From an uncultured Bacilli bacterium (lineage in GTDB: Bacteria; Bacillota_I; Bacilli_A; ML615J-28; CAG-313), in the NCBI GenBank assembly GCA_947591495.1, contig CANQDG010000003.1, positions 1 to 64,000 on the forward strand: a stretch of 64,000 nt of DNA. Reading direction: 5' to 3'. The notes beneath the pieces are model-generated. The model searched no databases and was not told the origin of the DNA. It saw only the letters and a program-made list of their open reading frames with translations. A program made the position numbers and the translations under genes. Positions within the stretch are counted from its first letter, which is position 1. Each line of letters opens with the position of its first letter. This document shows, in pieces, positions 11,852-58,784 of this stretch.

Positions 11852-11911
11852 GCATTGAGCAAAATACTTGTTAAAAGAATTTACTTGTTATATTATAATA
11901 TTAATCTTCAG

Positions 11912-12014
11912 GGCAGGGTGTAATTCCCGACCGGCGGTAAAGTCCGCGAGTCAGAAATGACATGATTTGGTGTAATTCCAAAACCGATAGTATAGTCTAG
12001 ATGAAAGAAGACAT
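11912..12014 (+). ncRNA. FMN riboswitch (RFN element)
   Basis: atcttcagggcagggtgtaattcccgaccggcggtaaagtccgcgagtcagaaatgaca...ggtgtaattccaaaaccgatagtatagtctagatgaaagaag. Confidence 0.97.
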
Positions 12015-12032
12015 AATATTTATTATGCTTTT

Positions 12033-12064
12033 TGGTTGCCTTTTGAAGATGGCAACTTTTTTTG
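12033..12064 (+). terminator. terminator stem of FMN riboswitch expression platform
   Basis: ggttgcc ttttgaagat ggcaact followed by T7. Confidence 0.75.
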
Positions 12065-19706: not shown

Positions 19707-20301
19707 TTATTATTTTGAAAAACAATTTTACGAAGAAGGTAAACAATATATCGCAGGGACTGACGAAGTAGGACGGGGTCCATTAGCAGGACCCGTTGTC
19801 GCAACCGCTGTTATAATGCCTAAAGATTGTTATATTGAAGGAGTAACCGATTCTAAAAAATTATCGGCCAAAAAACGTCAGGTTTTACGAAAGCAAATAG
19901 AAGAAAAAGCCCTTGCTATTGTAACAGTTTTTATTGACGAAGAAACAATCGATCAAATTAATATTTATGAGGCCAGTCGTTTAGCCATGGTTAAAGCTGT
20001 AAGAGGTTTAAATCCTAAGCCTGATATTGTTTTATCTGATGCGATGCCCCTTAAATGTGAATTTGATAATTTACCAATTATCAAAGGTGATGAAAAAAGT
20101 TTTGTTATTGCTTGCGCAAGTATTATTGCGAAAGAGACCCGCGATTATTATATGAAGATTTTAGATAAGAAATATCCTAATTATGGTTTTGCTAAAAACA
20201 AAGGTTATCCTACTAAGGCTCATTTACTAGCATTAGATCAATATGGGGTGTTACCAATTCACCGAAAAACGTATGCACCTGTTTATAAAAAACTGAATTA
20301 G
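19699..20301 (+). CDS. rnhB: ribonuclease HII
   Basis: AGTDEVGRGPLAGPVVA, DSKKLSAKKR, GDEKSFVIACASIIAK. Confidence 0.97.
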   Translation: MNNYYFEKQFYEEGKQYIAGTDEVGRGPLAGPVVATAVIMPKDCYIEGVTDSKKLSAKKRQVLRKQIEEKALAIVTVFIDEETIDQINIYEASRLAMVKAVRGLNPKPDIVLSDAMPLKCEFDNLPIIKGDEKSFVIACASIIAKETRDYYMKILDKKYPNYGFAKNKGYPTKAHLLALDQYGVLPIHRKTYAPVYKKLN

Positions 20302-20429
20302 ATTATATGTAAAATATAAAAAAAAGTCATTTTGTGGCATTTTATTTTAAATTATAGTATAATTAAAAGCGTATTTAAGATGGAAAAAGAATGATTTGGG
20401 GAGAAATAGATATAATTTTAAGATATATT

Positions 20430-20477
20430 TGAGCCCCTTATTGTTTGGGGGCTCATATTTTAAATTATAATAAGGGG
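20430..20477 (+). promoter_or_regulatory. candidate mutually exclusive hairpin / SD-sequestering RNA switch
   Basis: tgagcccc...ggggctca hairpin (20430-20455); same 5' arm ccccttatt (20434-20442) perfectly complementary to SD region aataagggg (20469-20477). Confidence 0.55.
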
Positions 20478-20486
20478 GATTTTTTT

Positions 20487-20651
20487 ATGAACGGAAAAAC
20501 TAATGTTCCAATTGAAAAAGTGGTATATGATCTAGTTGATAAAAATGTCAAAAGTTTTGTTGGCAAATACCAAGACATCAAAGAAAAATTAGTTATTAAA
20601 GATGTTGATGAATTAGATAATATCGAATTAAAAAAAGTAAAAAATGATTAA
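20487..20651 (+). CDS. 54-aa small hypothetical protein
   Basis: taaggggg SD before ATG; MNGKTNVPIEKVVYDLVDKNVKSFVGKYQDIKEKLVIKDVDELDNIELKKVKND; track start 20445 lies inside the hairpin. Confidence 0.65.
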   Translation: MNGKTNVPIEKVVYDLVDKNVKSFVGKYQDIKEKLVIKDVDELDNIELKKVKND

Positions 20652-20681
20652 AAAACATTAATTAAAATATTTAAATTGTCG

Positions 20682-20726
20682 AAAAAATATGTCTGAAAAC
20701 TTTTCGTTTTTGTTGACATATTTTTT
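20682..20726 (+). terminator. terminator hairpin overlapping topA promoter
   Basis: aaaaaatatgtc / gacatatttttt perfect 12-bp arms. Confidence 0.75.
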
Positions 20727-20741
20727 TTAGTATTATATAAT
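20713..20741 (+). promoter_or_regulatory. topA promoter TTGACA-17-TATAAT
   Basis: -35 TTGACA 20713-20718, -10 TATAAT 20736-20741. Confidence 0.8.
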
Positions 20742-20767
20742 CAAAGGCAAATATGATGAGGTGAAAA

Positions 20768-22873
20768 ATGAAATTACTAATTGTCGAGTCGCCAGCCAAG
20801 TGTAAAACAATCGCACATTATCTAGGCGATGAATATCAAGTAGAATCGAGTATTGGTCATATTAGAGATTTGTCAATTAAGGGTAAAGGTGGCTTTGGGG
20901 TTGATATTGAAAATAATTTTCAACCTGAATATGTCATTTTAAAAGATAAAGTTGCAATTGTTGAAAAATTAAAAGGTATTGCCGATTTAGCTGAACATGT
21001 TTATCTTGCGACCGACCCTGACCGTGAAGGAGAGGCGATTAGTTGGCATTTAAGTGAAGTACTTAATGAGCCAAAAGAAAAAGTTTCGCGAATCGTTTTT
21101 AATGAAATTACTAAATCAGCTATTTTAAAAGCTTTGGCAAATGATCGTGATATTGATATGAATTTAGTTCATTCCCAAGAATCAAGAAGAATTCTTGATC
21201 GCATAATTGGCTTTAGATTATCAAGTCTTTTACAACAAAAAATTGGTTCTAAATCAGCTGGTCGTGTTCAATCAGTAGCTTTAAAACTAGTTGTTGAACG
21301 GGAAAAAGAAATCGAAGCTTTTGATAAAACGGAATATTGGGATTTAACCGCTATTTTAAAAAAGCAAGTCGGACAAGCCGAAATTTTATTAAAAGCTAAA
21401 TTTTACGGAACAACCGAAAACAAAATGACTTTAGCTAATGAAGAACAGACTAATAATGTCATTGCAAGTTTAAAAGAAGATGAATATCAAGTAACTAATA
21501 TTGCCAAAAAGGAACGTAATAAAACTTCACGTCCACCTTTTATTACTTCAACTTTACAACAAGATGCTAGTGCTAAATTTAATTATAATGCTAAAAGAGT
21601 TATGCGGATTGCCCAAAAGTTATATGAAGGAGTCGAAATCGGAAAGGATCGGGTTGGTTTAATTACTTATATGCGTACTGATTCAATTCGTTTATCGGAT
21701 GAGTTTGTAAAAAGTGCGAAAAGTTATATTATTGAAAAATATGGCGAAAAGTATTACAAAGGCGTTAAAAAGCTTCAAAAAGGTAAGAATATTCAAGATG
21801 CCCATGAGGCCATTAGACCAACTGATATTAGAAGAACCCCTGAAAGCATCAAAAAGAGCTTAACTTTAGAAGAATTTAAAATTTATTCATTAATTTATAA
21901 TCGTGCCATTGCTTCACTTATGAGTGATGCGATATTAGAAGATACGAAAGTAGACATTGTTAATGCTGGCTATTTATTTAATTTGACAGGTGAGGTTACG
22001 ATCTTTGATGGCTTTAATGTTATTTATGAAGAAGCTAATATTGCTGATGAAGAAGAAGATGTAACTAAATTACCTGACTTAAGTTTAAATGAAAAGTTGA
22101 ATTTTGTTGAAATTGCTAAAGAACAAAAATTTACGTCTCCACCTTATCGTTATACTGAAGCAAGACTAATTCGAAAAATGGAAGAATTAGGAATTGGAAG
22201 ACCTTCAACATATGCTTTAACGATGGAAACATTAAAAGCTAGAGCTTATGTTAATGTCGAAAAAAGAACTTTTGTTCCAACCACGCAAGGCATTTTAACA
22301 ACCGAGCAATTAGAATTATTCTTTAGTAGCATCATTAATGTTAAATATACCGCCGAAATGGAAACAATTTTAGATAAGATTGCGGAAGGAAAAGCTGTTT
22401 GGTATGAAGAACTTCGCAAATTTTATGATGTCTTTGCCCCATTAATTGAAAATGCTCGGGATAATATGGTTAAACTTTATCCTAAACTTACCGATGAGTT
22501 TTGTCCCGAATGTGGTTTGCCTCTTTTAATTCGAAGAGGACCATTTGGAGAATTTACGGCTTGTTCGGGTTATCCTCGTTGTAAATATATCAAAAAAACC
22601 CCGAAAAAAGAGCCAACTAAAATTGGCGTTGTCTGTCCTATTTGTGGTGAAGGTGAAGTGGTTGAACGTATTAGTGGCAAAGGTCGTTCAAAAGGAGCTC
22701 TTTTCTATGCTTGTAGCAGATTCCCTAGTTGTAAAGCAACTTTCTCGGGAATTCCAACTGGTGAAAGATGCCCAATATGTAATGCGCCAATGATTATGGT
22801 TGATAATCAAATTCGTTGTAATAATGAACATTGTAAATCTAATGAAGGATTACTAAAAGCAAGTAATACTTAA
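20768..22873 (+). CDS. topA: DNA topoisomerase I
   Basis: MKLLIVESPAKCKTIAHYLG, TDPDREGEAISWH, YMRTDSIRLS, three C-terminal zinc ribbons. Confidence 0.98.
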   Translation: MKLLIVESPAKCKTIAHYLGDEYQVESSIGHIRDLSIKGKGGFGVDIENNFQPEYVILKDKVAIVEKLKGIADLAEHVYLATDPDREGEAISWHLSEVLNEPKEKVSRIVFNEITKSAILKALANDRDIDMNLVHSQESRRILDRIIGFRLSSLLQQKIGSKSAGRVQSVALKLVVEREKEIEAFDKTEYWDLTAILKKQVGQAEILLKAKFYGTTENKMTLANEEQTNNVIASLKEDEYQVTNIAKKERNKTSRPPFITSTLQQDASAKFNYNAKRVMRIAQKLYEGVEIGKDRVGLITYMRTDSIRLSDEFVKSAKSYIIEKYGEKYYKGVKKLQKGKNIQDAHEAIRPTDIRRTPESIKKSLTLEEFKIYSLIYNRAIASLMSDAILEDTKVDIVNAGYLFNLTGEVTIFDGFNVIYEEANIADEEEDVTKLPDLSLNEKLNFVEIAKEQKFTSPPYRYTEARLIRKMEELGIGRPSTYALTMETLKARAYVNVEKRTFVPTTQGILTTEQLELFFSSIINVKYTAEMETILDKIAEGKAVWYEELRKFYDVFAPLIENARDNMVKLYPKLTDEFCPECGLPLLIRRGPFGEFTACSGYPRCKYIKKTPKKEPTKIGVVCPICGEGEVVERISGKGRSKGALFYACSRFPSCKATFSGIPTGERCPICNAPMIMVDNQIRCNNEHCKSNEGLLKASNT

Positions 22874-22912: not shown

Positions 22913-22950
22913 CTCTATAAATTAGTTGGGATTTTTGATAAAAAGACCTA
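22913..22950 (+). repeat. copy 1 of ~37-bp dispersed repeat (possible IS/MITE terminal remnant)
   Basis: ctctataaattagttgggatttttgataaaaagacc, near-identical to 25791-25828. Confidence 0.6.
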
Positions 22951-23003
22951 TAAACTTATTATTAATTTTAAAATAATAAATAGCATTGCGCTTTCGAGAG
23001 ACG

Positions 23004-23068
23004 CGGAAATTAATTTTATAAAAGAATTTATCTGTTAAATTCTTTTTTAAGGTTAGTTTCCGTTTTTT
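23004..23068 (+). terminator. nested hairpin with T6 tract in leader of the repeat/wHTH gene
   Basis: outer cggaaattaa/ttagtttccg, inner aaaagaattta/taaattctttt, then tttttt. Confidence 0.55.
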
Positions 23069-23095
23069 GTTAATTTTAGCTATGGAGGAAAAATA

Positions 23096-23533
23096 ATAGA
23101 ATTTCAAAAAACTGTCCAAGAAACTAGCCAAGAAATTGAGACTGTCCAAGAAACTAACCAAGAAATTGAAACTGTCCAAGAAACTAACCAAGAAATTGAG
23201 ACTGTCCAAGAAACTAACCAAGAAATTGAAACTGTCCAAGAAACTAACCAAGAAATTGAAACTGTCCAAGAAACTAACCAAGAAACTAGCCAAGAAACTG
23301 TCCAAGAAACTGTCCAAGAAACTAACCAAGAAATTATTTTTAAAAGGTTATCTAATGAACAGAAAATTTTTGATTTAATTAAAGCAAATAAACAAATAAC
23401 TCAAAAAGAAATTGCTAATATAATAGGCTTGAGTGAAAATGGTATTAAATATAATTTAAATAAATTAAAAAATGAAGGTAAAATAAAACATATAGGTTCT
23501 ACTAAAAAAGGCTATTGGCAAATAATAAAATAA
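23096..23533 (+). CDS. tandem-repeat coiled-coil plus winged-helix DNA-binding domain protein; AUA start or frameshifted ATG start
   Basis: In-frame EFQKTVQETSQEIETVQETNQEIE...NQEIIFKRLSNEQKIFDLIKANKQITQKEIANIIGLSENGIKYNLNKLKNEGKIKHIGSTKKGYWQIIK*; ggagga SD before ATAATA. Confidence 0.6.
   Translation: MEFQKTVQETSQEIETVQETNQEIETVQETNQEIETVQETNQEIETVQETNQEIETVQETNQETSQETVQETVQETNQEIIFKRLSNEQKIFDLIKANKQITQKEIANIIGLSENGIKYNLNKLKNEGKIKHIGSTKKGYWQIIK
23111..23330 (+). repeat. 30-bp tandem repeats followed by 12-bp sub-repeats
   Basis: actgtccaagaaactaaccaagaaattga(a/g) x5 from 23111 to 23260, then shorter caagaaact(gt/aa/ag)c permutations. Confidence 0.95.
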
Positions 23534-42630: not shown

Positions 42631-43599
42631 ATGGAAAAGCAGATTAAAAAAATAGCCATTCTTACCTCAGGAGGCGATGCTCCAGGCATGAATGCCACTA
42701 TTCGAGCAGTTGTTCGGGCAGGAATTGATAGTGGACTTGAAGTATATGGTATTGAAGATGGATATAAAGGATTAGTTGAAGGACGCATTACTTTAATGGA
42801 TCGTGATTCGGTAACTAATATTATTAATCGTGGTGGAACAATTCTTGGTTCGGCACGACTTCCGGAATTTAGTAAAGATGAAGTAGCCCAAATCGCTTTA
42901 GATCAATTGAAAAAATTAGGAATTGATGCTTTAATTGCCATTGGTGGTGATGGAACTTATCGGGGTGCCTTAAAACTTACTAAAATGGGCTTAAATTGTA
43001 TCGGACTTCCGGGAACAATTGATAATGATATTGCTTCAAGTGAATTTACCATTGGTTTTGATACCGCTGTTAATACCGCAGTTGATGCAATTGATAAATT
43101 AAGAGATACTTCTAATTCACATCAACGTTGTTCAATTGTTGAAGTAATGGGAAGATATTGTGGTGATATTGCTTATGCGGCAGCGATGGCAACTGGAGCC
43201 GATTTAGTCATTACTTCTGAAACAGGATTTAGTTTAGAAGAAGTTATTAAGACGGTTAAAAAATGTCAAAATCATAAAAGTCGTCATGTTCTAATTGTTA
43301 TTACGGAACATATTACGGATGTGAGAGAACTAGCTAAACAAATTAAAGAGTTTACGGGCTTTGATTCAAGAGCTACAATTCTTGGCCATATTCAAAGAGG
43401 TGGCAGTCCAACTCCTTTTGATCGAGTTCTTGCTAGCCGTTTAGGTATTGCGGCAGTGGAAGAATTATTAAAAGGTGAAGGTGGCAAATGTATGGGCGTT
43501 TATCATAATGAAGTTGTTGCCATTCCAATTGAAGAGGCTTTGAGTATGAAAAAACAAATGTTTAAAGGCTACAAGGATCTTACAACCAAAATATCTTAA
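42631..43599 (+). CDS. pfkA: 6-phosphofructokinase
   Basis: ILTSGGDAPGMNATIRAVVR, IGGDGTYRGA, PGTIDNDI, RGGSPTPFDR. Confidence 0.97.
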   Translation: MEKQIKKIAILTSGGDAPGMNATIRAVVRAGIDSGLEVYGIEDGYKGLVEGRITLMDRDSVTNIINRGGTILGSARLPEFSKDEVAQIALDQLKKLGIDALIAIGGDGTYRGALKLTKMGLNCIGLPGTIDNDIASSEFTIGFDTAVNTAVDAIDKLRDTSNSHQRCSIVEVMGRYCGDIAYAAAMATGADLVITSETGFSLEEVIKTVKKCQNHKSRHVLIVITEHITDVRELAKQIKEFTGFDSRATILGHIQRGGSPTPFDRVLASRLGIAAVEELLKGEGGKCMGVYHNEVVAIPIEEALSMKKQMFKGYKDLTTKIS

Positions 43600-43609
43600 T
43601 TTAAAATCA

Positions 43610-43652
43610 AAAAATCCTTTATAGATACTAATATGGTATCTTAAAGGATTTT
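43610..43652 (+). terminator. terminator after pfkA
   Basis: aaaatcctttatagatac/gtatcttaaaggatttt then T-rich. Confidence 0.85.
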
Positions 43653-58669: not shown

Positions 58670-58700
58670 TAACTAAAATAAAATTCAAAAAAGTAGTATA

Positions 58701-58778
58701 AAAGTCTCTGCCGTAGACAGTAGGCGTTCTAATTTGAGAACTTAATGAAAGCCTACCGAGGAAAATTTTCAGGAGGTG
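58701..58778 (+). ncRNA. ribosomal protein L10 leader
   Basis: aaagtctctgccgtagacagtaggcg...ttaatgaaagcctaccgagg upstream of rplJ. Confidence 0.92.
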
Positions 58779-58784
58779 AAAACA

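Follow-up and report, generated by a model that had tools for sequence, protein, structure and literature searches.

What controls the small gene that lies between rnhB and topA in this uncultured bacterium of the class Bacilli? The first-pass annotation proposed that the leader of this gene, which would encode a protein of 54 amino acids, hides or frees the Shine-Dalgarno (SD) sequence and so acts on translation. We analyzed a stretch of 64,000 nucleotides ("the window") on contig 3 of the genome (G000), which is 1.5 Mb and low in GC (30%). Its nearest relatives are MAGs from the Bacilli, one of which is named Anaeroplasma bactoclasticum. The gene order in the window is a signal peptidase (Peptidase_S26), a GTPase (MMR_HSR1), rnhB, the 54-aa open reading frame (ORF), and topA; the GTPase upstream of rnhB is presumably YlqF-like. 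We compared G000 to four other species of its genus and found the 54-aa gene in G000 and in two sister species, G003 and G004, only. The features of the locus are:

20334-20363, plus strand: promoter-like site GTGGCA-18-TATAAT, matching 10/12 in a consensus scan, with the -10 box at 20358-20363
20390-20401, plus strand: block A, AATGATTTGGGG (AAURAUUUGRGG), predicted 5' strand of an antiterminator, 12/13 identical in G003
20402-20433, plus strand: AU-rich spacer, the loop of the predicted antiterminator, poorly conserved (14/27), which could hold a sensing part
20430-20455, plus strand: terminator-like hairpin TGAGCCCC-TTATTGTTTG-GGGGCTCA, -16.9 kcal/mol, with tail TATTTTAAATT, kept in G003
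20434-20445, plus strand: block B, CCCCTTATTGTT, part of the 5' arm and loop of the terminator-like hairpin and predicted 3' strand of the antiterminator
20456-20466, plus strand: imperfect U-tract of the putative terminator, with a tail score (2.74) that falls within the values for other terminators in the window
20472-20478, plus strand: Shine-Dalgarno sequence AAGGGGG, anti-SD duplex -10.2 kcal/mol
20487-20651, plus strand: 54-aa ORF, lineage restricted, with homologs in G003 and G004 only and a coding-like pattern of changes by codon position

The 54-aa ORF is likely to be a genuine gene

The ORF starts with the ATG at 20487 and continues for 54 codons, to a stop codon that ends at 20651. 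The homologous proteins in G003 and G004 are 39% and 26% identical, respectively, and both are encoded directly upstream of topA; in G003, the gene order around the ORF is the same as in G000. The remaining two species of the genus lack the gene at its place upstream of topA, and we found no convincing homolog of the protein in the remainder of 395 genomes from the class. (Weak protein matches elsewhere, with E values above 6e-4, were judged to be due to chance.) In the first 108 nucleotides, 62 are identical between G000 and G003, and the changes across these codons (1 to 36) include just 7 at second positions, versus 20 at first positions and 19 at third positions. Because it has homologs at the same place in two sister species and its second codon positions are conserved, the ORF is probably a real gene. 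The protein is modeled as a single helix, with moderate confidence, and our searches gave no match to a family, phage, plasmid, virus, or fold.

We also noticed features around topA. Across five species of the genus, the topA promoter region (20676-20745, TTGACA-17-TATAAT) shows strong conservation. Three of these species have an inverted repeat of the ATATGTC/GACATAT type that overlaps the -35 box; the repeat can also be read as a U-tailed hairpin 3' of the small ORF and may be an operator or a terminator that overlaps the promoter. Downstream of topA, there are low-complexity repeats in which both strands are open (22922-23329 on the minus strand and 23136-23378 on the plus strand). The plus-strand reading frame at 23136-23378 is rich in Lys, Leu, and Ser.

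A terminator-like hairpin precedes the start codon

The hairpin that the first-pass annotation drew in this leader has exactly the sequence and coordinates it reported: the 5' arm TGAGCCCC is at 20430-20437, the loop TTATTGTTTG is at 20438-20447, and the 3' arm GGGGCTCA is at 20448-20455. The hairpin is single copy in the G000 genome. It follows the promoter-like site and ends 31 bases short of the ORF's start codon, a position much like that of the FMN riboswitch terminator at 12057. It is not due to chance: two terminator-like matches were found, versus 0.1 expected in shuffled sequences. Its energy is the second lowest among all tailed hairpins that we scanned on the plus strand of the window. 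In both energy and tail, it scores like the intrinsic terminators between genes in the window, and this is clearer in G003, where the tail scores 3.34, better than in G000.

The G003 leader aligns with that of G000 from the -10 box through the start codon. It contains AATAATTTGGGGA, the hairpin AGGGCCCC-ATTTGTTG-GGGGCCT, the tail TTTTTAAATT, and an SD with GGGGG. The pairing of the hairpin is kept with one two-sided change, which, as a comparison of two sequences, gives no covariation statistics. G004 retains the 54-aa protein, but its leader has no CCCC, GC hairpin, or U-tract, and therefore no terminator. The TATAAT of the promoter-like site is aligned in both the G003 and G004 leaders, and transcription is predicted to start near 20370, as judged by the consensus match of this site only. 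Between a putative promoter, identified by consensus only, and the start codon, G000 and G003 have a terminator-like element and G004 has none.

A conserved upstream segment could compete for the 5' arm

We folded the RNA as it would be present before the 3' arm of the hairpin is made. At this stage, the CCCC and loop of G000 are predicted to pair with AAUGAUUUGGGG (20390-20401) with a probability of 0.99, and those of G003 pair with AAUAAUUUGGGG with a probability of 0.97 to 0.98. After synthesis of the 3' arm, this A:B helix is predicted to give way completely to the hairpin. In prediction, then, an upstream antiterminator overlaps the 5' arm of a terminator, and the two are mutually exclusive. 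No other piece of the leader is as well conserved as block A, in which 12/13 positions match between G000 and G003, versus 14/27 in the spacer.

Among ten terminator-like hairpins, this one has the strongest upstream sequestration of its 5' arm. (The positive control, the FMN platform, has an upstream pairing of 0.93.) Only 8 and 27 per 1,000 random upstream sequences from the window sequester the CCCC as well, and 24 and 88 of 500 dinucleotide shuffles of the upstream region, which keep GG dinucleotides, do so as strongly. The energy of the A:B duplex alone is not exceptional, as it is equalled by 205 of 2,000 shuffles for G000 and 303 of 2,000 for G003.

We considered two other arrangements. 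We rejected an enclosing helix, in which block A would pair with UUUUAAAUUA, the segment 3' of the hairpin, as its probability is about 0.01 in G000 and 0 in G003. For a leader-peptide attenuator, we found no short frame across the terminator that is conserved between G000 and G003; the distance from block A to the CCCC differs by one base (32 in G000 and 31 in G003), and the G000 frame from the ATG at 20391 stops at a TGA ahead of the hairpin. Elsewhere in the window, a terminator-like hairpin at 43613-43650, after a gene that ends at 43599, has a 5' arm that pairs upstream at 0.94 before its 3' arm is made. That upstream pairing may be incidental.

Could the hairpin be an unregulated terminator, which ends either a small RNA of about 95 nucleotides (from the promoter at 20358) or read-through from rnhB, so that the 54-aa gene lives on leak-through? 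The hairpin is terminator-like in both G000 and G003, similar hairpins commonly follow genes in the window, and the shuffles indicate that the CCCC is easily sequestered by chance. However, the hairpin is 154 bases past the stop codon of rnhB and beyond the promoter-like site, whereas most of the other intergenic terminators end 20 to 84 bases after the gene. Also, an unregulated terminator does not predict a conserved block A that pairs with the arm of the hairpin. We consider this explanation unlikely, although it is the best of the alternatives.

A related helix in G004

In G004, the counterpart of block A, UAAAAUUUGAGGAG, is predicted to pair with UUUUUCUCAAAUU, with a probability of 0.83 to 0.99 before the next G-run. 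Relative to the A:B helix of G000 and G003, there is one compensatory change, with a G-C pair replaced by A-U. The G004 block A pairs with its own partner at -10.1 kcal/mol, versus -5.4 and -2.6 kcal/mol with the block B of the other species, and an equally good helix arose in 12 of 2,000 shuffles. The G004 leader (L047) also has four G-rich, SD-like runs (GAGGAG, GAAGGAG, CGGGGAG, and AAGGGGGG), and the start codon is well spaced for the last of these only. G-quadruplexes and CsrA-type GGA sites were considered and dropped, as the G-runs are inconsistently placed.

We searched for the leader more broadly. A covariance model built from two leaders found G000 and G003 with certainty among 43 genomes from the order; the weak matches that were inspected look like ordinary terminators (for example, AAGACCC..GGGTCTTTTTTT) or AU-rich noise. 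Across 395 genomes from the class, the exact pattern of the leader occurs in G000 and G003 only.

These comparisons bear on whether the leader is simply neutral sequence, alike in G000 and G003 by descent, with neither helix regulatory. The overall folding stability of the leader is ordinary (z = -1.24), two sequences yield no covariation statistics, and G004 either lost the hairpin or never had it. However, block A and the GC hairpin were kept while the spacer and the ORF diverged, and block A again takes part in a helix in G004. We therefore doubt that the structure is incidental.

The SD sequence is probably not hidden

According to the translational explanation, block B pairs with the SD region and silences translation, and the hairpin frees it. 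The complementarity is confirmed: CCCCTTATT (20434-20442), the first 9 nucleotides of block B, exactly complements AATAAGGGG (20469-20477). This is the longest SD complement among the 54 genes in the window; the other 53 have 4 to 7 nucleotides. We also agree with the first-pass annotation that the leader has mutually exclusive helices and does not belong to a known riboswitch class: when we scanned 20280-20800 against Rfam, nothing came near the gathering score, and the weak matches were to unrelated families. The predicted energy of the SD duplex is -15.9 kcal/mol in G000.

However, the SD-burying helix reaches 9 base pairs only in G000. G003 keeps a CCCC/GGGG clamp and one further pair (-10.3 kcal/mol), and beyond the clamp, an A faces an A at the next position on the 5' side of the SD. 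In G004, the CCCC is missing, yet GGGGGG is present at its SD; therefore, this pairing is not what preserves the G-run. If the SD helix is forced, the leader folds 7.3 kcal/mol worse than with the hairpin in G000 and about 19 kcal/mol worse in G003. The annotation had proposed covariation in homologs as the test of both helices; the hairpin survives in one of the two homologs and the SD helix does not pass. With its pairing not conserved, its fold far less stable, and the hairpin transcribed before the SD, a switch that hides the SD is highly improbable. The annotation's other suggestion, a thermosensor, is unlikely because the predicted pairing of the SD in G000 varies little with temperature, falling without a sharp shift from about 0.5 at 30°C to 0.35 at 45°C. 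The 3' arm of the hairpin and the GGGGG in the SD are alike, which explains why the 5' arm complements the SD as well. More generally, a G-rich terminator arm that resembles a G-rich SD is enough to create what looks like an SD-hiding complement.

A putative transcription attenuator

Given the conserved competitor at 20390-20401 and the terminator-like hairpin, control is likely at the level of transcription, and we prefer to explain the leader of the 54-aa gene as a transcription attenuator of the terminator/antiterminator type. We assign this a probability of roughly 0.5, because it involves three species only, G004 lacks the terminator, and the basis is computational. What has been computed is which segments pair, that the two helices exclude each other, and that they are conserved in G003 and in part in G004. 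We infer where transcription starts, that it really terminates at the hairpin, and that this depends on a signal. RNA polymerase would start near 20370 and transcribe block A and then block B, which would pair to form the antiterminator. As long as A:B is intact, polymerase would read into the SD and the ORF. If A:B were disrupted or outcompeted, block B would instead pair with 20448-20455 to form the terminator, and transcription would stop near 20463.

A more speculative idea, which we consider improbable, is that this is a new, tiny sensor RNA, in which the 32-nucleotide AU-rich segment (20402-20433), or else a block A-binding protein or RNA, responds to a signal and sets the read-through into the genus-specific small protein. 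If the leader is an attenuator, then it adds a candidate in Anaeroplasma-like bacteria and provides a control point for an unannotated gene beside topA.

Comparison to known systems

SD-sequestering riboswitches and RNA thermometers share with this leader a segment that is complementary to the SD. Unlike in those systems, the SD pairing here is not conserved, not favored, and, in prediction, independent of temperature.

The window also contains, ahead of a 197-aa ORF, an FMN riboswitch (RF00050, 110.7 bits) at 11900-12016, whose terminator ends at 12057. As predicted for the leader of the 54-aa ORF, it has a terminator just before the start codon and an alternative upstream partner for the 5' arm. 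However, the FMN riboswitch has a conserved aptamer that is recognized by Rfam, and none is recognizable in our leader. Another Rfam element in the window, an L10 leader (RF00557) at 58693-58780, is barely above the gathering score and precedes an ORF at 58776. Among the papers listed in a literature search for riboswitches in Anaeroplasma, none names this genus.

Terminator/antiterminator attenuators are an already known kind of element. Naville and Gautheret (2010; PMC2965389) surveyed 302 genomes and reported 15,930 putative attenuators; candidates of this kind have been catalogued in the thousands, and many are uncharacterized. Unlike those attenuators, the element described here precedes an orphan 54-aa gene and is known from only two, or at most three, species. 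It shares with them a putative terminator in the 5' leader, a predicted overlapping upstream antiterminator, a lineage-specific distribution, and the lack of a recognized sensing part.
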